Source of the DNA: Lysobacterales bacterium
Lineage (GTDB): Bacteria; Pseudomonadota; Gammaproteobacteria; Xanthomonadales; Rhodanobacteraceae
Assembly: GCA_021324945.1 (NCBI GenBank)
Contig: JAJPID010000008.1
Coordinates: forward strand, 1 to 32,190
DNA: 32,190 nt
Direction of reading: 5' to 3'
Shown: positions 5,292 through 24,444 of the stretch, piece after piece
Layout of the letters: each line of letters starts with the position of its first letter
Numbering within the stretch: the stretch's first letter is position 1
The notes under the pieces: model-generated
Told to the model about the DNA's origin: nothing
What the model saw: only the letters and a program-made list of their open reading frames with translations
Databases searched by the model: none
Made by a program: the position numbers and the translations under genes

Positions 5292-7301
5292 TCAACGCGC
5301 CAGCCGCCGCCTCGGCATGCCGCGCAGCTGCATCATGAACGCCACGCCGCCTTCGATGTTCTGCGCCTCGACTTTGCCTTGATGCAGTTCGGCGACCAGC
5401 CGCACCACATACAAACCCAGTCCCAGATGCGGCACGCCGACACGCGTGCCGCCTCCGCGCACGCTCACCAGCGAATCAAACAGTCTTCCCGACATCGCTT
5501 CGGGCAGGCGCGGCCCGCTATTGGTGACGGTGATCCGCGCGCCCTCACCGTCTTCTGCCGCGTCCAGCGCGATGCGGATCCATCCCTGCTCCGGCGCAAA
5601 CGACAGCGCATTGTCGAACAGCTTGTCGAGGGCCTGCGCGATCAATTCCGGCGCGCCGTGCAGCGGTACGCTTTGCGTGGTGATCGCGCATTCCAGCCGG
5701 CGCGGCGCGGCCAGCGGCCGGTACGCTTCCGCGCAGCCGCGCACCACCTGCGCCAGATCAAAATCTTCGCCTTCGGCCGAGGCGATCGCGCGCTCCATGC
5801 GGCTGGCTTCACTCATTGCGCGAACGATGGTGCCCAGGCGCGCAGCGCCATCGCGCGCGCGCGCGAGGTAAGGCTGCGCATGCGCCGGCAGGTCGGCGTG
5901 TTCGAGGTTGTCCAGCGAGGATTTCACGATCGCCAGCGGCGTATTCAGCTCGTGCGAGAGCTTGGACGCCAGCGTGCGCAGGTATTCGGTGTAGGTGCCG
6001 ATCGCATCCAGCAATCGCGAAAGACTGCGCGCCAGATCGCCCAGTTCGTCGCTGTCCTCGACCAGCGGCAACGCGACGATCGGCGCGCCGTCGCGGCGCT
6101 GCGCCCGTTCAGCGGCGTCGCGCAGGCGGCCGATGCGCAAGCTGAGCCATGTCGCGAAGGCGAACAGCAGCGCGCCTGCGATCAGCAAACCGGCCACGCT
6201 CGCCAGCATCAGACCCAGCAAGGCGCGGTTGGTCAGCAACGGCAACGCACGGCTGGATTGTTCCAGCACCAATGCGCCGCGCGTTTCGCCGTGCGTGTCC
6301 AGCGGCACGGCGACGGTCAAGACTACACTGCCGGAGGTGGGGCCTGCGCGCCAACCGGCGGTGGCGCGGCCTGCCAGCGCGCGCTGCACATCGGGCGCCT
6401 GCAAGCGCGGCACATTCACGGGCAAGGCCGAGGTGTGTGCCAGCGCCGGGGCGATCAGCAGATTGAATACGAGATTGTCGAACCAAGCCATGCGGTCCTC
6501 GCGCGTCGGCGCGTCGGCCGACAGCGCGCCGCCTGCAGCCAGGACCCAGCCGTCCGCACTCAAAAGACGCACGCGCACGCCGGTCGGCGCGAGTTGAGTC
6601 AGGTCGTTCGACAGCGCAGGCGACAACGAATACAGCGGCCGCGTGTCCGGTCGGCCGGAATCGAAACGCGTGGGCGCATCCGCGTCGAACACCGCGACGC
6701 CGAGATGATCCGGTGCCTGCGCGCGCGGCAGACGCAGTTCGATGCGATAACTGCCGGCATCCTCCTGCCATTGCCCCGCGATCAGATCGGGCAGGCCTGG
6801 CACACGATCGTCCAGCGGGCGCGCCTGGAAACTGCCGGGCGCGGCGGAAGCGATCAGAAACCGGCGCTGCGACGCGCCGCGCGCCAGGATCAGTTCGATG
6901 TGATCGGCGTCTTCCGCTTCGCTGTCCTGCGCGTCGGCGCGCGTTTGCGTGGCATCGTTGACCTCGATGTGCATGTACAGCCACGCGGCGTCCTGCGCGA
7001 GCTGCACGCGGACACCCGGCCAGGGCTGTTGCACCCATGGCGACAACGAGGCCCAATCGTCGCCATAGCCATCCACCACGATCGGCTGACGCGCGTTCTG
7101 CACGTACCAGCCGTGCACCGGCTGTGGCAGATTGGCGCCGACCGCGACCAGTCCGCGGCTCAACGCAAACGCAGTCGCCAGCAAGGCTTGCTCCTGCGAA
7201 CGACGCAGCAACTGCTCCATCTGCCGCACGTACAGCCAGCCCGCCCACGGCAAGGCCAGCGTGGACAGCGCGACCAGCAGGAGCTTGCGGCGTAGGGTCA
7301 T
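5292..7301 (-). CDS. Sensor histidine kinase, PdsS-like (proteobacterial dedicated sortase system type)
   Basis: Membrane sensor kinase of 669 residues. There is one transmembrane segment near residues 5-24, a large periplasmic domain (about 30-355), and a second membrane segment (about 361-386). A HAMP-like linker, the phosphoacceptor region SKLSHELNTPLAIVKSSL with H450, and a HATPase domain follow (DKLFDNALSFAP as N box, then HLGLGLYVVRLVAELHQG). The periplasmic part opens with VVDGYGDDWASL, resembling CBM9-like sugar-binding folds, which suggests a glycan or surface-polymer signal. Overall architecture and the HELNTP variant recall the kinase of the dedicated sortase system, a memory-based assignment. 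Its response regulator lies directly upstream (155-base gap). No sortase or LPXTG substrate is visible in the window. Confidence 0.8.
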   Translation of the reverse strand: MTLRRKLLLVALSTLALPWAGWLYVRQMEQLLRRSQEQALLATAFALSRGLVAVGANLPQPVHGWYVQNARQPIVVDGYGDDWASLSPWVQQPWPGVRVQLAQDAAWLYMHIEVNDATQTRADAQDSEAEDADHIELILARGASQRRFLIASAAPGSFQARPLDDRVPGLPDLIAGQWQEDAGSYRIELRLPRAQAPDHLGVAVFDADAPTRFDSGRPDTRPLYSLSPALSNDLTQLAPTGVRVRLLSADGWVLAAGGALSADAPTREDRMAWFDNLVFNLLIAPALAHTSALPVNVPRLQAPDVQRALAGRATAGWRAGPTSGSVVLTVAVPLDTHGETRGALVLEQSSRALPLLTNRALLGLMLASVAGLLIAGALLFAFATWLSLRIGRLRDAAERAQRRDGAPIVALPLVEDSDELGDLARSLSRLLDAIGTYTEYLRTLASKLSHELNTPLAIVKSSLDNLEHADLPAHAQPYLARARDGAARLGTIVRAMSEASRMERAIASAEGEDFDLAQVVRGCAEAYRPLAAPRRLECAITTQSVPLHGAPELIAQALDKLFDNALSFAPEQGWIRIALDAAEDGEGARITVTNSGPRLPEAMSGRLFDSLVSVRGGGTRVGVPHLGLGLYVVRLVAELHQGKVEAQNIEGGVAFMMQLRGMPRRRLAR

Positions 7302-10119: not shown

Positions 10120-10719
10120 TCACCTCGATTTCTTCTTGCGGCCCTTGCCCCGGCGCGGATCGGCCGGCTCGCCCTTCTTGCCGAAATCCTCCATCAGCGT
10201 CTTCATGTCCTCGGCGTGCTCCTCTTCCTGCGCGAGGACTTCTTCCAGCAGGCGCTTAGTGGTGGTGTCGCGGTCGCCGACATAGTTGATGATTTCGCGA
10301 TAGCTGTCGATGGCGATTCGCTCGGCCACCAGATTTTCCTCGATCATAGCGGCCAGATCGTCCGGCACCACGAACTCGGCGTGACTGCGCGTGGACAAAC
10401 CATCCGGCTCGAAATTCGGCGTGCCATCCAGCTGCGTGATGCGTTCAGCGATTCTGTCGGCGTGCGCTTGCTCCTCGTTGGCGTGTTCCAGGAATTCCGC
10501 CGCGACGCTCTTGGCGTTAATGCCGGAAGCGAGGTAGTAGTGTGCCTTGTAGCGCAGCACGCAGACGATCTCCGTGGCCAGCGCCTCGTTTAACAGCTTC
10601 AGCACCGTGTCGCGATTGAGCGTATAGCTCTCCGTGACCGCGCCACGCTTGATGTGCTCCCGCGCGCGCGCGCGAATGGTCTGGATGTCGGTGAGGAACG
10701 GTCGGGATTTGGCGGGCAT
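10120..10719 (-). CDS. Ferritin-like di-iron protein, bacterioferritin family
   Basis: Likely stores or detoxifies iron. The 199-residue product has a four-helix ferritin fold with di-iron ligands at bacterioferritin spacing: E50 (ALATEIVCVLRYKAHYYLA), the E83-H86 pair in NEEQAHADRI, E133 in NLVAERIAIDSYREII, and the E165-H168 pair in QEEEHAEDM. A 35-residue N-terminal extension and a lysine/arginine-rich tail (RRGKGRKKKSR) distinguish it from classical Bfr (about 158 residues). The basic tail could contact DNA, as Dps tails do; that is inference. No Bfr haem-ligand methionine is evident at the usual place. The ATG at 10719 is fixed by AAGGAG six bases upstream. TACACT at 10750-10755 (minus) is a possible -10 box. 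Confidence 0.88.
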   Translation of the reverse strand: MPAKSRPFLTDIQTIRARAREHIKRGAVTESYTLNRDTVLKLLNEALATEIVCVLRYKAHYYLASGINAKSVAAEFLEHANEEQAHADRIAERITQLDGTPNFEPDGLSTRSHAEFVVPDDLAAMIEENLVAERIAIDSYREIINYVGDRDTTTKRLLEEVLAQEEEHAEDMKTLMEDFGKKGEPADPRRGKGRKKKSR

Positions 10720-10783: not shown

Positions 10784-12622
10784 TCACCTCCGCGCCGCGC
10801 GCGCTGCACGTCCGGCGACTTCGCCCACCAGTGCCAGAGCGGTTTCGACCTCCGGCGCGCGCGCACGCCACTTGTCCGGGCGTGGTGTCGAAACCGTGTG
10901 GCTCGCCACAGGCAGACCGCCATCGATCCTGCGGTCCCATTCGAATCCGATCGCTGCGCACAACCGCTCGATTTCGGCGTTCGGATCGGCGATCAGGTCG
11001 GCGTATCGTGCGACGCACCAGCGCGTTTCGGGAAGATTCTCCAGATCACGCAACAGGATGTCCGTGGTTGTGCGCCATTGCACGGCGACGATTTCCGCCA
11101 GCGGCTTCCCGATCAGGTCGCGCCAGCCAGGCACCAGCACCAGCGACCACGGCAACCCGGTCCAGTCCGGCAATTGCGGGTAGGTGCGGAATCCCCCCGA
11201 TTCCCAGGCTTCCATCATGCTAGCCAGCACCTCGCGGGGTTCACGGTAGAGATAGACGAATAGCGCGTCCGGAAACACCTTTGCGAGAAACGGAATACGC
11301 AGCGCGTTCTTGGGCGTTTTTTCCAGCAGCCGGATCCGGCCCTCGGGCCGCCGACCATCGCGATCGAATGCACGCCGGCGGAACCTCTCGCGCAAAGCGG
11401 TGATGATTTCCGGAGTCGCGTCGCTCGCCTCCAGACGATTCGAGGTGTAGCCGCGGGCCGCTGCACCCAGCTTACCCGAGGCGGTGCCTCCTTCGATGAG
11501 GCCGTGGCTTTCGCCTCCGATCGTGCAGGCGCTTGGGCTCAAGGCGAGCGTTTCGAACAACAGCGACGAGCCCGAACGCGGTGGCGAGACGATGAATACC
11601 GGCCGCTCGAAAGGGTAGTCGGTTTTGATCTCGGCGACTGCAGGTTTCACGAGCGGCGCACGCGTGGCTTCTTCATGCGCAGCGGTCGTTTCGGTGCCGC
11701 GAATCGCCTGTCCAATCAAACCGTTCACTGCAGAAAAAAACTGAGTCTGGTTTTTCAGATGCAGCTCGGCACCCAGCCGGCGCATGCTTGCCAGAAATTC
11801 CCGCAAGGTCCGCTGGTAGTCCGCGGCTCCCGCAGCATCGGCACCGAAGCGGAACCACAGCGTTCGCCAGTCGAGTACGAATTCGTTGGCCACGTGCCTG
11901 ACGATTGGCAGCAACGGATGCGGCTCGGCTTCTGCCAGCAGGAAAGCGACGTGTTCGCGCAATTCCCAGTAGCTCATCGGCGACATCAGGTTGACCGATT
12001 CGAAGATGAGTTCCGGCTCGGTGTCGCTCGGCGCGACGAAGCACGGCGTCCAGGCGCTTTGGGGACCGTCGTGCGACCGGCCCGCGTTGACCAGCTTGCC
12101 GAAAGCGGTGCTGCCCACCGTGTCCACCACCAGATGGACACGCGCGATTCCAGTCTCGTTGGTGACGCGGTGCAACCGCCACGTATCGAAGATCCAGCAC
12201 TCTCCCTGTGCCATGTGGGTTTCAGCGTCACCGCAAAAGAAGCGCACGGATGGGTGGGTGACAACAGGGATGTGCACGCGCACACGCTCGTTCCAGTAAT
12301 GGTTGGTGTCGACGTGCGGGTTCACCTCCGCGCCGGCCGAGAGTCTCATCAGTCGCACGCGGCCCAGCACCGCATCGAGGCTCGCCAGCACCTGGCGCAT
12401 GTAACGGCATCGTTGCAGCGCGGGAGTCGCGCGCATCGGTCCGAACAAATCGTCGCCGCGTGCCGGATCGCCGTCCACCGCCACCAGCGGAAGAGCAGTG
12501 TTTCCAGGCAACCCGCTGGGATGTGAACGCCAGAGGTTTTCCTCGAGCGCATCGATCTCCGTTGCCAATGCAGACGCATCGAAGCTCAACGGCAACTGGA
12601 TGAAAGGAACCGGCAGCTTCAT
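10784..12622 (-). CDS. Fusion: aspartyl/asparaginyl beta-hydroxylase-like dioxygenase plus sulfotransferase
   Basis: Two enzymes in one 612-residue chain. Residues 1-170 are a 2-oxoglutarate/Fe(II) dioxygenase domain with the metal triad H103-x-D105 (NPHVDTNHYW) and H151 (WIFDTWRLHRV); R161 is the probable 2-oxoglutarate ligand. Residues 200-310 form a helical linker. Residues 338-612 are a sulfotransferase with the PAPS 5'-phosphosulfate loop VSPPRSGSSLLFETL (about 345-358) and the 3'-phosphate motif YREPREVLASMMEAW. Together these imply hydroxylation of a substrate and transfer of sulfonate, perhaps to the new hydroxyl (inference). The first 310 residues are paralogous to the gene directly upstream, one base away (TGA-C-ATG). 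No signal peptide is seen, so it is likely cytosolic. The substrate is unknown. Confidence 0.87.
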   Translation of the reverse strand: MKLPVPFIQLPLSFDASALATEIDALEENLWRSHPSGLPGNTALPLVAVDGDPARGDDLFGPMRATPALQRCRYMRQVLASLDAVLGRVRLMRLSAGAEVNPHVDTNHYWNERVRVHIPVVTHPSVRFFCGDAETHMAQGECWIFDTWRLHRVTNETGIARVHLVVDTVGSTAFGKLVNAGRSHDGPQSAWTPCFVAPSDTEPELIFESVNLMSPMSYWELREHVAFLLAEAEPHPLLPIVRHVANEFVLDWRTLWFRFGADAAGAADYQRTLREFLASMRRLGAELHLKNQTQFFSAVNGLIGQAIRGTETTAAHEEATRAPLVKPAVAEIKTDYPFERPVFIVSPPRSGSSLLFETLALSPSACTIGGESHGLIEGGTASGKLGAAARGYTSNRLEASDATPEIITALRERFRRRAFDRDGRRPEGRIRLLEKTPKNALRIPFLAKVFPDALFVYLYREPREVLASMMEAWESGGFRTYPQLPDWTGLPWSLVLVPGWRDLIGKPLAEIVAVQWRTTTDILLRDLENLPETRWCVARYADLIADPNAEIERLCAAIGFEWDRRIDGGLPVASHTVSTPRPDKWRARAPEVETALALVGEVAGRAARAARR

Positions 12623-12623
12623 G

Positions 12624-13613
12624 TCAAGAAGCCGCTTGCGCGGCGATGCGCACTTCGCCGGACGCCGTCGGTTCGCGACGATCCGCTAGCGCCATCCCCA
12701 GCACCATCGAACGCAACGTGCTCATGAATTGCATGCCGTTGACGAGCAGCAGCGATGACGCCGAACGCTGCATGCATTCGGCGAACTCATTGAGAAGACG
12801 GCGATACTCGGACCAGCCGGCCCGGCTTTCTCCGTATTGTGCCCACAGCGCATGCCAGTTCGCGATGAAGCGATTGACGTCACGCTGCACGCACGCGAGC
12901 TGCGGATGCGGCGTCACGTGCGCGAGAATGAATTCGACGTGATTGCGCAACTCCCAGGGCGTCATCACTTGCGGGACATTGACCGACTCCAGCCTCAACT
13001 GAGCGAAAGCTTCCGCATCCACGTCGAAAGTCTCCGCCCTCCAATTCTCAAAATCGCCATGACCCGGCGCGCGGCCGCGGGCGGCCAGTTCCCAGAACTG
13101 CTCCCCACCAACGGTATCCGCCACCAGGTGCACGCGTTCGCGATCGACCACATTGATCACCCGATGCGGACGCCAGGTATCGAAAATCCAACATTCGCCC
13201 GGCGCCATGTGTACTTCCGCCTCGCCGCAGATGAAGCGAACGCCGGATTCAGCCTGGATCGGCACGTGCACACGCAAGCGATCCCGCCAGTAGTAGTTGA
13301 TGTCCGCGTGCGGAGTGACTTCTGCGCCGCCGATGAGCTTCATCAATCGCGTGCGGCCCCAGACCGCGCCCAGCCGTGCCAGCACCTGCGTGAGATAGGG
13401 ACATCTCTGGAGGTAAGGCGTGGGCCGCATTGGCCCGGCGATCGCGTCACTGTCCGGATCGCCCTCGACCGAGATCAGGGGCAGCGCGAAATTTCCTGGA
13501 TAGTTCTGCGGATGCGGCCGCCACGCCGCATCGCCCAATGCATGCATTTCCTCCGCGAGCCGAACAGCATCGAAGCGCAACGGCAACTGCACGAACGGCA
13601 CCTGAAGTTTCAT
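12624..13613 (-). CDS. Aspartyl/asparaginyl beta-hydroxylase-like dioxygenase, stand-alone paralogue
   Basis: The 329-residue protein matches the first 310 residues of the downstream fusion gene along its length: MKLQVPFVQLPLRFDA against MKLPVPFIQLPLSFDA, and GECWIFDTWRPHRV against GECWIFDTWRLHRV. The Fe(II) ligands are H102, D104 (TPHADINYYW) and H150; R160 is the likely 2-oxoglutarate contact. The C-terminal part (about 210-310) is the same helical domain, MTPWELRNHVEFILAHVTPH against the fusion's WELREHVAFLLAEAEPH. The ATG at 13613 was chosen because both paralogues begin MKL-VPF there; the frame stays open upstream only as overlap with thiC. It starts 10 bases after the thiC stop and is followed by the fusion one base after its own stop, indicating an operon. 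No clear Shine-Dalgarno is present. Confidence 0.85.
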   Translation of the reverse strand: MKLQVPFVQLPLRFDAVRLAEEMHALGDAAWRPHPQNYPGNFALPLISVEGDPDSDAIAGPMRPTPYLQRCPYLTQVLARLGAVWGRTRLMKLIGGAEVTPHADINYYWRDRLRVHVPIQAESGVRFICGEAEVHMAPGECWIFDTWRPHRVINVVDRERVHLVADTVGGEQFWELAARGRAPGHGDFENWRAETFDVDAEAFAQLRLESVNVPQVMTPWELRNHVEFILAHVTPHPQLACVQRDVNRFIANWHALWAQYGESRAGWSEYRRLLNEFAECMQRSASSLLLVNGMQFMSTLRSMVLGMALADRREPTASGEVRIAAQAAS

Positions 13614-13623
13614 CGGAAGGGAC

Positions 13624-15572
<1,949 letters not shown>

Positions 15573-15595
15573 AGCCGCGTCGGCCGTGCGGCCGA

Positions 15596-16243
15596 TCAGC
15601 GCTTGGCGTACGCGCGCAGGAACATCTCCACCGCCGCTTCCGCAGTGGCGGTCACTTCGCGCTCGAAACCTTCCTGACAGCCGACGCAGCCGAACAGCCG
15701 CATGGCATGCAGATCGCCTTTCAGCAGCGCGAGAAACTGTCCGGCTGCGCGGCCGATATCGTCAATCTCGAGATCGCCGCGCCGCACCGCGACGTCAAGG
15801 AAATGCTCCATCTTGCTGTGCATGCGCGCCGGGCCTTCTTCCCACATCAACTGGCCCAAACGCGGATTGCCTTGCTTGCAGTCGCCGAGGATCGCGCGCC
15901 AAGTACCGATCGCTTCGGGATCGGTGACCGCGCTGGCGTGCGCACGGGCGATGCGAAGCATGCCTTCGCGCAACGGGCCAGCCTGCGCGGCTTCGAACAG
16001 GCTGTCGGGCAGCGCCTGCCGGCAGCGCTCGCGCAATGCTTCGCGAAACAGCGAATCCTTGTCGCCGAAATGGCTGTACACAGTCAGCTTGGAAACGCCA
16101 GCCTCCGCGGCCACGGCATCCATGCTGGTGCCCTCATAGCCGTGATGCGGAAAGAGGCGCTTGGCCGCATCGAGAATCGCGGCGCGCTTTTCCATGTCCT
16201 TGGGCCGGCCGGGGCCGGGCGTGCGGGCGGTGATGGCAACCAT
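15596..16243 (-). CDS. TetR/AcrR-family transcriptional regulator
   Basis: A 215-residue one-component repressor. The N-terminal helix-turn-helix (about 20-65) reads AAILDAAKRLFPHHGYEGTS, followed by MDAVAAEAGVSKLTVYSHFGDKDSLF. The rest is a ligand/dimer domain resembling the C-terminal domain of AefR-like regulators (LREGMLRIARAHASAVTDPE). It lies divergent from pcm-tolC, the typical xanthomonad arrangement, so the likely target is the efflux channel operon and itself. A paired half-site, AACTTGA/TCAAGTT, brackets its promoter. It reads toward thiC with a 58-base gap, so partial co-transcription is possible. Confidence 0.93.
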   Translation of the reverse strand: MVAITARTPGPGRPKDMEKRAAILDAAKRLFPHHGYEGTSMDAVAAEAGVSKLTVYSHFGDKDSLFREALRERCRQALPDSLFEAAQAGPLREGMLRIARAHASAVTDPEAIGTWRAILGDCKQGNPRLGQLMWEEGPARMHSKMEHFLDVAVRRGDLEIDDIGRAAGQFLALLKGDLHAMRLFGCVGCQEGFEREVTATAEAAVEMFLRAYAKR

Positions 16244-16329
16244 ATCAATTCGGATTCCTGCAAAAATCGAACTTGAGTGAGGCGGCGCGTCGGTGTTCTC
16301 CCGGCGCGTCCGCTTGAACGGACATCATT

Positions 16330-21135: not shown

Positions 21136-21884
21136 CGATTTTTGCGCGCCTCGAACAACTTCGCATACTTCAGGAAAACGTAGAACGCGCCGATCACGCT
21201 GGCGATGAAGCCCGCCCAACCGGAGAGAAAATAGCGTTTGAAAACGTATTGGCGCAGAAAGAACACCGGCGGATACAACACCATCATCAAACCCGCGAAA
21301 CGCTGCCGCCGCGCGCGCTTGTGATCGAGCATGCCAGAGGAATAGCGATTGATCTTCTCCACACGCGCTGCGATGTCAGCGTCGCCGTCGTTGATGAAAT
21401 CCGCGCGCCACAAGGTTTTCACTGGGCCGTCCACTTCCACCGCCGCATGCACCGGCACCTTGTTCATGCACGCGCGGCGGCGGTCGAACAGTCGCAGGTG
21501 GCCGTTGCGATGGCTCCAGCGCGATTGCGCCGTCCAGAACATCCGCTCGCGCCGCGGCAGACGGAAACCCGCAGCGCGCGGATTTTCCAATGCGCGTTCG
21601 ATGACCTCGCGCGTGCCGGGCGAAAGCACCTCGTCCGCGTCGATGTTGAGGATCCAGTCGTGGCTTGCCATGTCGTACGCGCGCTGCTTCTGCGGGCCGT
21701 AATCGTCGAACGGATGCACCGCCACCCGCGCGCCGAACCGCTTCGCGATATCGACCGTGGCATCGGTCGAACCGGAATCCAGCACCACGATCTCGTCGGC
21801 GAAATCCGCCGCGGCGAGGCACCGCTCCAGCGTGTCGGCGTTGTTGTAGGTGATGATCACCAGCGAGAACTTTTCACGCGGCAT
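21126..21884 (-). CDS. Glycosyltransferase family 2, WaaE/KdtX-like
   Basis: Cytosolic-face transferase of the LPS core type. The GT-A fold begins FSLVIITYNNADTLERCL, with VVLDSGSTDAT and the metal-binding NIDADEVLS (DxD). The later FRLPRRERMF, GHLRLFDRRRA and VHAAVEVDG segments fit the WaaE-like beta-glucosyltransferases. A hydrophobic C-terminal hairpin (about 205-245) may hold it to the membrane. I chose the ATG at 21884 (252 residues, starting MPREKFSLVII), giving an 11-base overlap with the ligase gene; the ATG at 21935 would add 17 unconserved residues. The last residues and stop come from repeat element B. Confidence 0.88.
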   Translation of the reverse strand: MPREKFSLVIITYNNADTLERCLAAADFADEIVVLDSGSTDATVDIAKRFGARVAVHPFDDYGPQKQRAYDMASHDWILNIDADEVLSPGTREVIERALENPRAAGFRLPRRERMFWTAQSRWSHRNGHLRLFDRRRACMNKVPVHAAVEVDGPVKTLWRADFINDGDADIAARVEKINRYSSGMLDHKRARRQRFAGLMMVLYPPVFFLRQYVFKRYFLSGWAGFIASVIGAFYVFLKYAKLFEARKNRER

Positions 21885-23169
21885 GCCTGTCTTCCATTTC
21901 TGGCGCGGATACCCGCTGATCGGCCAATCCGGCACTCCATAGACTGAGCAGCCACCAGAACAGCACGCCCCACCACGCCGAATAGAACGCGAGGTGAGTG
22001 TTGATCGGAAACAGCATCACAAACAACGCCACGCTTGCAGGCCATGCACGCTCACGCGCATTCGCATCGGAGCGCCTCCATACGCGCAGCGCCAGCACGA
22101 TGCCCAGCAGCCACAAGGCCAGCCCGAGCGCGCCGGTGTCGTCCAGGATCTCCAGCACGATCTGGTGCGGATGGCAGGCGCCCTCGCCCGGGCCGCAACT
22201 TTCTTCGGTGAGGAAATGATCAGCGGGCGATGCGAACTGCGGATAGGCGTAGCGGAAGCCGCGCACGCCCACGCCGGTGAGCGGATGCGCGGCGTACATC
22301 TTCGCCGCCACCTGCCAGATTTCCATTCGTCCGCTCAACGCGGCATCCAGCCCTTGCGCAGAATCATTGAATACCAGCAGCGTGCGCTGCATGCGCTGAT
22401 CGAAACGCGGCGAGGTTTTCCAGGCGATGCCCACGGCCAGCGCGGCGATCACGGCCGCCGCCGCGACCCACAACGCAAAACGTGCCGGCGCGCGCGCCTC
22501 GTGCCACAGGAACGCGATCGCGACCAGCGCGTACATCAGCCACGCCGAGCGTTCGCCCGCCAGCAGCACCGGACCCATCAGGAATAGCAGCGCGACGACC
22601 GTTCCCGTGCGGCCGAAGCGCTCCCGCGCGCTCCACAACACGAACGGCGACAGCACCGCCAGCACCGGCCCCAGTTTCAAATCGTCTGCGCCGAAGATGC
22701 CGGAGATGCGCTGCGCTTCCGCATGCCCCCCCAAGCTGTAGCCGGTGAAACTCTGCACCCAGGCGTCGAGCGCCCACAGCGCGGCGATCAGGCCGGTAAA
22801 AAAATACAGCGCGCGCAATCGCACATCGTCGCGCACGATCCAGCACACGTAGCAGCCGAATGGCGCAAAGCGGATCAGCGCCGCGACCGTGCTCCAGCTC
22901 TTGTTCGCATCGATCGCGCCGAAAGCCGAAATCAGCGCGGCGGCGAAGTAGCATCCCCACAGTGCGAGCAGCAATCGCGCTGAGCGTTCGTTCGTACGCA
23001 ACGCCGACGCTCGCATTAACAGGATCAGCGCGCCGATCAAACACGCGAGCACTGCGGCTTCGCTGGCGCGCCCGAACGGCAGCAGGAAAATCACCGCGGC
23101 GATCGGCAACAGTGATGCGAGCTTGTTGACACGGTGAAGCGCGCTGGGGAACAAGCGATCGGCCTGCAT
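21874..23169 (-). CDS. O-antigen ligase/polymerase family (WaaL-like, Wzy_C domain)
   Basis: Polytopic inner-membrane protein of 431 residues with about eleven to twelve hydrophobic helices. It probably ligates undecaprenyl-linked O-antigen to lipid A-core in the periplasm. The Wzy_C signature is present: LSGRMEIWQVAAKMYAAHPL with TGVGVRGFRYAYP, then a periplasmic loop ending ACHPHQIVLEILDDTGALGL, which holds the catalytic-loop His and Arg residues expected in WaaL. Ligases and polymerases share this domain; ligase is favoured by the neighbouring core-sugar transferases. It overlaps the GT2 gene at its 3' end. Repeat element C lies directly upstream of its ATG. Confidence 0.88.
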   Translation of the reverse strand: MQADRLFPSALHRVNKLASLLPIAAVIFLLPFGRASEAAVLACLIGALILLMRASALRTNERSARLLLALWGCYFAAALISAFGAIDANKSWSTVAALIRFAPFGCYVCWIVRDDVRLRALYFFTGLIAALWALDAWVQSFTGYSLGGHAEAQRISGIFGADDLKLGPVLAVLSPFVLWSARERFGRTGTVVALLFLMGPVLLAGERSAWLMYALVAIAFLWHEARAPARFALWVAAAAVIAALAVGIAWKTSPRFDQRMQRTLLVFNDSAQGLDAALSGRMEIWQVAAKMYAAHPLTGVGVRGFRYAYPQFASPADHFLTEESCGPGEGACHPHQIVLEILDDTGALGLALWLLGIVLALRVWRRSDANARERAWPASVALFVMLFPINTHLAFYSAWWGVLFWWLLSLWSAGLADQRVSAPEMEDRHAA

Positions 23170-23188
23170 GAAAACAGCCGCGATTGTA

Positions 23189-23279
23189 GTGAGGGGTGGG
23201 CCGTGAGCGGCGATTGATGAGCGGTGAGCGGCAAAAAAGTGCTGTCCCGAAGCTCTTCCCGCTGACCGCTGACGTCTCC
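23189..23279. repeat. Heptamer inverted-array element C
   Basis: Six 7-bp units stand in register: GTGAGGG (23189), GTGGGCC (23196), GTGAGCG (23203), GCGATTG (23210), ATGAGCG (23217) and GTGAGCG (23224). A 28-base spacer follows, then CCGCTGA (23259), CCGCTGA (23266) and CGTCTCC (23273) in the opposite sense. The last complements to GGAGACG, the unit of element A. The spacer contains AAAAAGTGCTGTCCCG, which recurs exactly at 25581-25596. The element occupies the gap between the GT4 stop and the ligase start. Confidence 0.7.
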
Positions 23280-23283
23280 AGCA

Positions 23284-24444
23284 TCACGCCGCCGCGACTT
23301 CTGCATACAACTTCAGCGTCGCCTGCTGCATGTCGATCAAACGGTAGTTGTGCAGCGGCGCGATCGGTGGCGCCACGCGCAGCAGTTCGGCTGCGCGTTC
23401 GATCAGTTTTTCGACGTCGCCCGGCGGCACGCGCCCGGCCGGATACAACTCGGCCAGCAGCTCGCCCACGCCGCCGTGCGCGTAACCGAGCACAGGCCGG
23501 CACAGCGCCAGCGCCTCGACTACGGTGCGGCCGAAACTCTCGGGCTGGTTGGACAACTGCAACACCAGCGCGGATTCAGCGTAGATGTCGCGTACGTCCG
23601 CGCGCGCCGACGAGAACACTACCGCGTCCGCAACGCCGCGCTCCTGCGCAAGCGCGCGCAATTCGGCGAAGTACGCTTCGCGGCCGGGCTCGACCGCGCC
23701 AAGCAACAGCAGGCGCGTTTCGATCCCCCGCGCGCGCAAACCGGCGACCAGCGCGATCGCGTCGGCGTGGCCTTTCAAACGCGTGCCGCGCCCGGGCAAG
23801 GTCAACAGTGGAAAGCCCGCGAGCTGGGGGAACTCGCTGAAGAAGCGCTGCCGCCATGCATCGTCGGGGCGATAGCCATAGGGAAATTCGCCCGGATCGA
23901 TGCCGCGCGGAATCACAGTCAGGCGGGAAGGATCGACACGGTAGTGACTCAGCACGAAATCGCGCACCGTCTGCGATACCACGATTACGCGCTCGCCGCG
24001 TGTCATGATGCGGCTGTAATTGCCCGGTGAATTCAAACCGTGCACGGTGGTGACGAAATGCGGTCGCGGCTTGATGCCGCGCAGCGCCAGCCAGGTCATC
24101 CACGCGGGCAGGCGCGAACGCGCGTGCACGATATCTGGTCGGATTTCCTCCAACAGCCGCCGCAACGGCCGCACGTGACGCAGCGTGCGCAGCGATTTCT
24201 TCGCCAGATCCAGCGGCACGTGTTCGCTGCCTTCGGCTTGCAGACGCGATACTAGCCGGCCGCCGGTGGAGATCACCACCGAGCGATGGCCCGCCTGCAC
24301 CAGGGCTCGCGCGATCTCCAGCGTGGAACGCTCGGCACCACCGTTTTCCAGCGCGGGCAGCAATTGCACCACAGTCAGCGGTCGGTCGGGGGGAATGAGT
24401 TCGGCCATCGGGGTCGACCCGGGCGTGGTGTGCGCGGAATACAT
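23284..24444 (-). CDS. Glycosyltransferase family 4 (LPS core/surface glycan type)
   Basis: GT-B fold transferase of 386 residues using a nucleotide sugar in the cytosol. The N-terminal domain opens VVQLLPALENGGAERSTLEI, typical of GT4 enzymes. FVTTVHGLNSPGNYSRIM and RVIVVSQTVRDFVLSHY follow, then the donor-binding half: VIPRGIDPGEF, TLPGRGTRLKGHADAIAL, and the E-x7-E motif in QPESFGRTVVEALALCRPVL. The first ATG (24444) and the one at 24408 (MAELIPPDRP) both lack a clear ribosome-binding site; the conserved fold starts after the second, so the shorter start is quite possible. It lies upstream of the ligase and GT2 genes on the same strand. Donor and acceptor sugars are unknown. Confidence 0.9.
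   Translation of the reverse strand: MYSAHTTPGSTPMAELIPPDRPLTVVQLLPALENGGAERSTLEIARALVQAGHRSVVISTGGRLVSRLQAEGSEHVPLDLAKKSLRTLRHVRPLRRLLEEIRPDIVHARSRLPAWMTWLALRGIKPRPHFVTTVHGLNSPGNYSRIMTRGERVIVVSQTVRDFVLSHYRVDPSRLTVIPRGIDPGEFPYGYRPDDAWRQRFFSEFPQLAGFPLLTLPGRGTRLKGHADAIALVAGLRARGIETRLLLLGAVEPGREAYFAELRALAQERGVADAVVFSSARADVRDIYAESALVLQLSNQPESFGRTVVEALALCRPVLGYAHGGVGELLAELYPAGRVPPGDVEKLIERAAELLRVAPPIAPLHNYRLIDMQQATLKLYAEVAAA

Follow-up and report, generated by a model that had tools for sequence, protein, structure and literature searches.

Layout of the locus

The question raised by this locus is what a hydroxylase and a sulfotransferase joined in one polypeptide act upon, and whether the second domain uses the hydroxyl group made by the first. 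The answer put forward here, which we hold to be about evenly balanced between right and wrong, is a two-step tailoring: hydroxylation followed by O-sulfonation of one carboxylate-bearing target, within a TonB-linked modification system.

The window, i.e. the whole stretch of 32,190 nucleotides that was analysed, carries the fusion gene and a stand-alone hydroxylase gene behind thiC (Table 1). The first-pass annotation had described two consecutive genes with a common hydroxylase unit. This was confirmed, as the units are 50% identical over ~303 residues, a match far above chance. The gene spacing was also as described, with 10 bases between the thiC stop and the ATG of the stand-alone gene and a single base between the stop of the latter and the ATG of the fusion. 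The ferritin-like gene lies 64 bases downstream of the fusion. From the 10-base gap we infer that thiC and the hydroxylase genes may be co-transcribed.

Table 1. Features of the fusion locus in the window.
Feature	Position	Strand	Details
Fusion gene, 612 aa	10784..12622	-	Hydroxylase (residues 1-~310), flexible linker (322-333), PAPS sulfotransferase (~340-590)
Hydroxylase unit of the fusion (residues 1-320), clade B	11663..12622	-	Fe ligands H103, D105, H151
Sulfotransferase domain of the fusion	10784..11602	-	PPRSGSS loop (347-353), E371, EKTPKN (434-439), R460/R463, S468
Stand-alone hydroxylase paralogue, 329 aa, clade A, without sulfotransferase	12624..13613	-	Fe ligands H102, D104, H150; length given for the ATG that homology supports; a 372-aa frame is open as well
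thiC, upstream of both hydroxylase genes	13624..15537	-	ThiC Pfam match, E 4e-186
Ferritin-like gene	10120..10719	-	Start set at the MPAKSR methionine (10719)

The hydroxylase units

Both window genes matched PF05118 (fusion, residues 66-168, E 2e-15; stand-alone gene, E 1.2e-14), with 57.4 and 54.8 bits against the superfamily cut-off of 22.6 bits. The profile TIGR04531 (putative nonproteinogenic amino acid hydroxylase) gave 24 bits for the fusion, under its cut-off of 300, and no match for the stand-alone gene. The models of both proteins were confident (pLDDT 91.2 and 93.5). The HxD...H motif and the helical domain reported at first pass are present, the helical part following the beta core in the predicted models of the units. 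The Fe ligands of the fusion and the 2-oxoglutarate arginine R161 were found in 81/81 rows of alignment A1, which, like the N-tree, holds 77 of the 81 fusion frames (L023, L078, L079 and L082 were left out).

The hydroxylase half matched L-proline cis-4-hydroxylase (4p7w) and proline 3-hydroxylase type II (1e5r) best, both by profile and by fold; these have the Fe triad, the 2-oxoglutarate residues and the carboxylate-binding arginines in common with it. The 2-oxoglutarate/carboxylate residues of the fusion hydroxylase are R90, R115, H117, R161 and H163. In cis-P3H, the excerpt of PMC9968057 assigns substrate carboxylate binding to R95, R97 and R122 and binding of the free amine to E112. The conserved arginines of the fusion were mapped on the former three: R90 and R115 are present in 81/81 rows and position 93 is R or K in 81/81, R90 being offset by one residue from R95 of 1e5r and in register with an Arg of 4p7w. 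In contrast, at position 108, the equivalent of E112, the amine-binding Glu of the proline hydroxylases is replaced by Tyr (73/81) or His (8/81). The fusion family differs further by its fused sulfotransferase and by a helical part that appears to be arranged differently (whole unit, TM 0.36-0.53, rmsd 14-16); these low whole-unit scores weigh against two-step tailoring.

The core fold of Cpz10, the caprazamycin beta-hydroxylase (7v4f), matched the fusion hydroxylase with a TM of 0.77 (normalised by target), and the available part of PMC9814697 describes the same Fe triad. Unlike the fusion, Cpz10 is unfused, comprises ~170-180 residues in the solved chains and belongs to a nucleoside-antibiotic pathway. 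The PF05118 family and the core fold are also common to AspH and the window hydroxylases. AspH has two Fe histidines without a carboxylate ligand, and TPR repeats, whereas the window hydroxylases keep HxD...H and gave no TPR match in the Pfam scan.

The sulfotransferase half

The presence of a fused sulfotransferase with a PAPS loop, as annotated at first pass, was borne out by a match to PF13469 (Sulfotransfer_3; residues 341-563, E 3.5e-29, 103 bits vs. a cut-off of 27) and by conservation of the P-R-S-G-S loop. The PAPS-site residues R349, G351, S352, K435, R460 and S468 occur in 78/78 aligned full-length fusions, and R463 in 73 of the 78. The Fe, 2-oxoglutarate and PAPS residues on which the first proposal depended are intact. 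The NoeE nodulation sulfotransferase profile gave 21.7 bits, under its cut-off of 500.

CurM and TPST were the nearest solved matches, the CurM and olefin-synthase sulfotransferase domains (4gbm, 4gox) being high among them. Enzymes of the CurM type act on an enzyme-made hydroxyl within polyketide synthases that have a thioesterase. Here, in contrast, the sulfotransferase is fused to a hydroxylase and, by Pfam scan, has thiC, the ferritin-like gene and a PMT_2 gene as neighbours in the window. TPST1/2 have the PAPS loop in common with the fusion sulfotransferase, as well as a Glu, which in the fusion presumably occupies the position of the TPST base; they are eukaryotic secretory-pathway enzymes without a hydroxylase domain.

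Origin of the stand-alone paralogue

A recent tandem duplication of the hydroxylase units was ruled out, since the two units fall in two separate clades. By phylogeny the stand-alone hydroxylase is another paralogue, without sulfotransferase, and the N-tree node joining it (win_SA) to L015, L016 and L021 has a support of 87. Clade B without L021 has a support of 99 in the N-tree, and the C-tree node, in a tree to which L023 was restored, has 95. Both are 'quick' builds with SH-aLRT support only, and the root of the N-tree is unsure, its two outgroup rows being long-branched and not grouping together. In L021 a stand-alone-type hydroxylase is joined to a window-type sulfotransferase, which counts for two-step tailoring; a reading as recombination rests on one N-tree row and two C-tree rows. 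The idea that the stand-alone paralogue always accompanies the fusion did not hold, as a same-family neighbour of ~330 aa adjoins it in 2/79 loci.

Distribution of the fusion and coupling of its halves

The fusion architecture recurs widely across GTDB genomes, where 79 loci were kept out of 170 related stretches. At least 25 of 299 genomes of the order encode both halves as a single frame, and in 7 more these are separate neighbouring genes, while three further loci (L143-L145) have split neighbours with a shorter hydroxylase. The start codon overlaps the preceding stop in all eight junctions read (3 split hydroxylase-sulfotransferase pairs and 5 fusion-TPR-sulfotransferase pairs), these having been chosen for touching ORF coordinates. 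Since the fusion recurs widely and the same two domains are neighbour genes in other genomes, the halves probably serve one pathway.

The coupling is common but not strict, as each half was also found alone in fetched flanks, a point against two-step tailoring: among 16 further loci, nine have the sulfotransferase without the hydroxylase and three the reverse. The hydroxylase occurs without the window-type sulfotransferase in 9 of 20 selected loci (L112-L119 and L121, with L120 outside the count), and in L116, L117 and L119 a TPR-sulfotransferase lies beside it. DUF4915 is another fusion partner beyond the first reading, and forms a triple fusion in L109. In L110, a DUF4915-fused relative, both Fe histidines and the 2-oxoglutarate arginine are replaced, which counts against two-step tailoring.

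Genomic settings

The gene thiC is a neighbour in 27 of the 79 fusion loci, none labelled Alphaproteobacteria. A TPR-sulfotransferase lies within 8 kb in 22/79 and a TonB receptor within 8 kb in 18/79; none of these counts is corrected for relatedness. Islands of TonB receptors and TPR-sulfotransferases form a second main setting beyond the first reading. Where thiC lies within 5 kb (25 loci), neither a TonB receptor nor a TPR-sulfotransferase was near, and three genomes hold two fusion copies, of which one follows thiC and the other is part of an island. Rhodanobacter sp. C05 and C01 have both kinds of copy. By proximity count, 27/79 loci have neither thiC nor a TonB receptor nor a TPR-sulfotransferase, which counts against the two-step proposal; two of these have thiC by the other neighbour table, and some contigs are short.

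Islands of TPR-sulfotransferase, TPR-hydroxylase and TonB receptor also occur elsewhere in the small genome of the window (2.5 Mb) and in another gammaproteobacterial family (L148), and hold several further sulfotransferases and 2-oxoglutarate oxygenases. Sulfotransferases adjoin TonB receptors above chance in four genomes (10/31 vs. 1.2 expected), as calculated for selected genomes and 62 of 66 receptor places against a plain Poisson model, which takes no account of clustering. Even where the sulfotransferase is missing, a TonB receptor lies near the hydroxylase in L112-L115 and L118. In L075 the gene of an AMP-binding ligase ends at the fusion start; a small acid substrate fits this better than a protein does, which weighs against two-step tailoring.

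A lasso or other RiPP cluster was ruled out, as the genome of the window has no lasso marker PF13471 and gaps of only 10, 1 and 64 bases are too short to house a precursor. The portion of a table available from PMC10040529 lists numbered gene clusters (1738-1748) with a lasso B2 protein, two sulfotransferases, an aspartyl beta-hydroxylase, a PqqD protein and an asparagine synthase, which by their numbering would be genomic neighbours. In the open-licence literature, this table portion was the sole printed hint found that enzymes of these kinds may act jointly on a peptide.

Proposed function and alternatives

In the proposed two-step tailoring, the N-terminal Fe(II)/2-oxoglutarate domain would insert a hydroxyl into a carboxylate-offering substrate, for which a free amino acid is less likely than one that is N-blocked or peptide-bound. 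The C-terminal domain would then transfer the sulfonate from PAPS to the new hydroxyl, giving an O-sulfated hydroxy product; it is plausible that the hydroxyl made by the fused domain is itself the one that the sulfotransferase would use. The stand-alone unit would supply this pathway with a further hydroxylase, which may rely on the fused sulfotransferase, and the pathway itself would be that of the TPR-sulfotransferase/TPR-hydroxylase/TonB-receptor islands. The presence of an APS kinase counts for this proposal, as do the carboxylate arginines kept while the amine-holding Glu is replaced.

The same features could be read as two independent modifications of a single large target, with the sulfotransferase acting for instance on tyrosine and the fusion merely co-delivering both, and this we consider unlikely, yet the most serious of the alternatives. 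The match to tyrosylprotein sulfotransferases with their Glu, the additional sulfotransferases and oxygenases of the islands, as expected of many separate marks, and the occurrence of each half alone all agree with it, but a handed-on product fits better with the fact that precisely these halves are paired or fused time and again, and with the swap in L021. Somewhat less likely still is that the TonB receptor itself is hydroxylated and sulfated in the cytoplasm before export. The TPR regions carried by the partner sulfotransferases and hydroxylases hint that the targets are proteins or peptides, and both the excess of sulfotransferases adjoining receptors and the receptors near lone hydroxylases point the same way. 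However, inspection by eye of the consensus of island receptors (27 tabulated, of which the 26 over 700 aa were aligned) revealed no distinctive conserved motif, and the part of the receptor may be limited to uptake or sensing of the product.

It is improbable that sulfonation serves to make the hydroxyl a leaving group, with an end product formed by elimination or ring closure and carrying no sulfate ester. CurM and olefin-synthase sulfotransferases do sulfonate a beta-hydroxyl ahead of a decarboxylative elimination, and CurM is the best solved match with the olefin-synthase domain also high, but TPST-like matches score about equally, and the neighbour proteins scanned, which represent part of the neighbour clusters, gave no match to a thioesterase, carrier protein or polyketide domain. 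A modification of a pyrimidine or thiamine compound by the followers of thiC is very improbable, and the thiamine link was rejected. The frequency of thiC upstream and a TPP riboswitch ahead of it in 5/6 thiC loci scanned (L028 being without) would favour such a role. Yet thiC is absent from island loci, several Rhodanobacter (L026, L031, L043 and L048) have the fusion at the same site with no thiC beside it, and no TPP riboswitch was found in the window at gathering score, nor in a lax scan of 15300-16300. The gene thiC is probably a positional neighbour.

Significance

The chemistry of each half is known, while no description of the hydroxylase-sulfotransferase fusion, its partners or its setting was found in the open-licence PMC literature. 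As a bolder and rather doubtful extension, Lysobacterales, Caulobacterales and scattered other Pseudomonadota might possess a dedicated hydroxylation-sulfation machinery marking TonB-dependent receptors, or a secreted or imported peptide that they handle, as a convergent counterpart of the modification of eukaryotic secretory proteins by AspH and TPST. The parts of such a machinery would be the fusion, the TPR-sulfotransferases and the TPR-AspH-like and PF13640 oxygenases. Since split, fused, swapped and triple-fused versions exist, the order of the domains and their partners can be put to the test. The association with TPR-sulfotransferases and TonB receptors suggests a modification system without a named product, and if both halves act on one target, the fusion would offer a single-chain route to O-sulfated hydroxy residues.

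Gene arrangement in the window

The first-pass annotation had described two consecutive hydroxylase genes, the second with a sulfotransferase, one base apart and 10 bases behind thiC. Pfam matches over the cut-offs confirmed this architecture, PF05118 being present in both genes and PF13469 in the fusion only. The successive gaps between thiC, the stand-alone gene, the fusion and a ferritin-like gene were read as 10, 1 and 64 bases, the first two as claimed, and identity between the two hydroxylase units is 50%. A TetR gene is located upstream of thiC. No TPP riboswitch was detected upstream of the window thiC (15537-16300), while one precedes thiC in five of six relatives scanned (L018, L027, L040, L050, L090; not L028; L numbers denote fetched loci). 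The window thiC, unlike that of most scanned relatives, may therefore be regulated by other means.

Features of the window, of its genome and of related loci
Feature	Location	Strand	Remark
thiC	window, 15537-13624	-	first in gene order
Stand-alone hydroxylase, 329 aa	window, 13613-12624	-	PF05118
Fusion, 612 aa	window, 12622-10784	-	PF05118; PF13469 in second half
Ferritin-like gene	window, start 10719	-	downstream of fusion
Histidine kinase	window, 5292-7301	-	nearest TIGR03785 (proteobacterial dedicated-sortase-system kinase), below cut-off (499.5 vs 612.2 bits)
XrtA/PEP-CTERM-type O-ligase, glycosyltransferases	window, 21874-24444	-	weak matches below cut-offs
TonB receptor (cut by contig end), TPR-sulfotransferase, PF13640 oxygenase, two more sulfotransferases	window's genome, C14 (L122)		by homology to neighbour clusters
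TonB receptor, TPR-sulfotransferase	window's genome, C48		by homology to neighbour clusters
TPR-AspH-like gene with PF13640 oxygenase	window's genome, C66 (L127)		by homology to neighbour clusters; some 3 kb from APS-kinase frame
Frame related to L075 AMP-binding ligase	window's genome, C37 (L125, 4204-6024)		beside a sulfotransferase
AMP-binding ligase	L075, 649-2082		ends at fusion's first base
Hydroxylase + sulfotransferase + DUF4915	L109, 5679-8852		triple fusion
Hydroxylase + DUF4915	L110, 6300-8633		
Hydroxylase + DUF4915	L111, 6206-8233		

Active-site residues and resemblance to known enzymes

The first-pass reading depended on intact Fe and PAPS pockets. In a residue alignment numbered by the window fusion (A1; 81 rows, i.e. 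78 full-length fusions, the window's included, and three stand-alone copies), the Fe ligands H103, D105 and H151 are kept in 81/81 rows, as are R115, H117, R161 and H163. The sulfotransferase residues R349, G351, S352, E371, H373, K435, R460 and S468 are present in 78/78 fusions and R463 in 73/78. Judged by sequence, the Fe/2OG and PAPS pockets are both unbroken. The AlphaFold models reached pLDDT 91.2 and pTM 0.59 for the fusion, with a disordered linker at 322-333, and 93.5 and 0.90 for the stand-alone protein.

In PDB profile searches, the hydroxylase half matched best L-proline cis-4-hydroxylase (E 1.3e-10, A1; 8e-15, A2), followed by proline 3-hydroxylase and Cpz10, and the sulfotransferase half matched CurM (3e-13) and TPST1 (3.3e-12); Foldseek results were consistent for both halves. 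The core fold of the hydroxylase unit is well matched by Cpz10 (TM 0.77 by target), whereas the whole unit could not be superposed on the proline hydroxylases (TM 0.36-0.53, rmsd 14-16). In PMC9968057, a docking-based model of cis-P3H has the substrate carboxylate held by three arginines (R95, R97, R122) and the amine by D109 and E112. The arginine positions are conserved in the fusion family (R90, R/K93, R115), whereas 73 of the 81 rows of A1 have Tyr and the other 8 have His at that of E112; the window fusion has His and its stand-alone neighbour Tyr. This pattern suggests that the family hydroxylases would still hold the carboxylate and probably not a free alpha-amine; residues that are N-blocked or peptide-bound would be the more likely class of substrate. 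The arginine mapping is a lead, not a proof, since R90 lines up directly with an Arg of 4p7w but lies one position off R95 of 1e5r.

Distribution and domain pairing

A scan of GTDB genome contigs gave 170 stretches with a relative of one half or of both, and the 80 best of them yielded 79 loci, each with a frame matching both halves. They belong to Lysobacterales, Caulobacterales, Hyphomonadaceae, one Chromatiales record and unassigned Proteobacteria. L071, whose record carries a Rhizobium label, groups among Arenimonas in the hydroxylase tree and may be misbinned. The family is common within the window's order and sporadic outside: either half was matched at E 1e-20 or better in 67 of 299 genomes of the order, the window's own included (36 of 86 genera), and at E 1e-40 or better in 11 of 274 genomes of a class sample (own included), with the halves joined in a single frame in 6 of these. 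Within the order, at least 25/299 genomes encode the two halves in a single frame (22 seen as one match, 3 as a pair of matches within that frame) and 7/299 have them as separate neighbours.

Split genomes provide Rosetta-stone evidence for a link between the halves. In them (L102-L108), the hydroxylase gene lies directly 5' of the sulfotransferase gene, and start and stop codons overlap in all three pairs read (L102, L103, L105), which were picked since their coordinates touch. The same order is found in L143-L145 with a shorter hydroxylase (224-230 aa). The pairing is not strict. Nine of 20 loci hand-picked from the order scan (L112-L119, L121) have the hydroxylase without a fusion-type sulfotransferase; 16 further loci, some on stretches stopping near the gene, comprised three split pairs, one fusion, nine sulfotransferase-only and three hydroxylase-only cases. 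Several lone halves have a TPR-sulfotransferase beside them, in L116, L117, L119, L139, L140, L142, L147 and L150.

The family hydroxylase has a second fusion partner in DUF4915/TIGR03032, a domain without known function. The N half of L110 was found by BLAST, Pfam giving a weak Cupin_2 match only, and it retains neither Fe histidine nor the 2OG arginine. In Pseudoxanthomonas and relatives (L074, L081, L083, L084, L086; L105, L106, L112-L114, L118), a PD40-domain gene, an AraC-type regulator (one of each Pfam-scanned) and a TonB receptor precede the hydroxylase in most cases, even where the sulfotransferase is missing.

Genomic neighbourhoods

Two main settings of the fusion were observed, neighbour clusters being named after one Pfam-scanned member each. 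thiC lies upstream in 27/79 loci, all labelled Lysobacterales or unassigned Proteobacteria or Gammaproteobacteria. A TPR-sulfotransferase lies within 8 kb in 22/79 loci, a TonB receptor in 18/79 and both in 13; neither was found near the fusion in the 25 loci having thiC within 5 kb. None of the three was recorded in 27/79 loci, several on short contigs, and two of these (L025, L049) do carry thiC, missed by gene choice. In L045, L063, L065, L068 and L148, the fusion and a TPR-sulfotransferase gene share bases at their stop and start codons. L148, from another family of the class, repeats the set of TonB receptor, TPR-sulfotransferase, fusion and TPR-AspH-like gene. Rhodanobacter sp. C05 (L038, L029), Rhodanobacter sp. 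C01 (L077, L034) and Dyella sp. S184 (L033, L039) each have one copy behind thiC and one in such an island. In four Rhodanobacter loci (L026, L031, L043, L048), the fusion is flanked, as in the window, by TetR and ferritin-like genes, but thiC is absent.

Counting those in the window, its genome has 6 matches to PF05118 and 8 to PF13469, and there are 8 TonB receptors. In the near relatives L016 and L017, genes matching the islands of the window's genome adjoin the fusion itself. In a comparison over four genomes, 10 of the 31 sulfotransferase domains had one of the listed TonB receptors less than about 3 kb away, against 1.2 expected; the window fusion is not one of the ten. Islands with varying subsets of TonB receptor, TPR-sulfotransferase, PF13640 oxygenase and TPR-AspH-like genes recur in the group and beyond (L122, L127, L148).

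Proposed modification and origin of the paralogue

Both domain families are already known, and domain databases may well list their combination; a published description of the fusion or of its island setting was not found in searches of open-licence papers. The Fe/2OG domain would hydroxylate the substrate, sulfonate from PAPS would be transferred onto the new hydroxyl, and the product may be used or displayed in a TonB-receptor-linked setting. Because TPR enzymes are co-located, a peptide or protein would be a more likely target than a small metabolite. The ligase abutting the fusion in L075, a single case, would be consistent with an activated small acid.

The first-pass annotation had asked whether the stand-alone paralogue always accompanies the fusion. 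It does not: besides the window, the two are adjacent in only 2 of the 79 loci (L015, L016). In 14/79 a further, shorter gene resembling PF05118 (mostly about 217 aa; one checked by Pfam) lies near the fusion. In the hydroxylase tree (100 rows), the stand-alone protein falls within a clade of mostly Rhodanobacteraceae fusions (30 rows, support 96), many of them behind thiC, and the window fusion in another (11 rows, support 99). Loss of the sulfotransferase from a former fusion would be the simplest account of the stand-alone gene. The trees also reveal a domain swap: the sulfotransferase tree (87 rows) places the domains of L021 and L023 as sister to the clade of the window (support 95), unlike the hydroxylase of L021, which is of the stand-alone type. 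Most simply, a deletion between two repeats would have joined a stand-alone-type hydroxylase to its neighbour's sulfotransferase in L021. If this is right, the window-type sulfotransferase can serve either hydroxylase.
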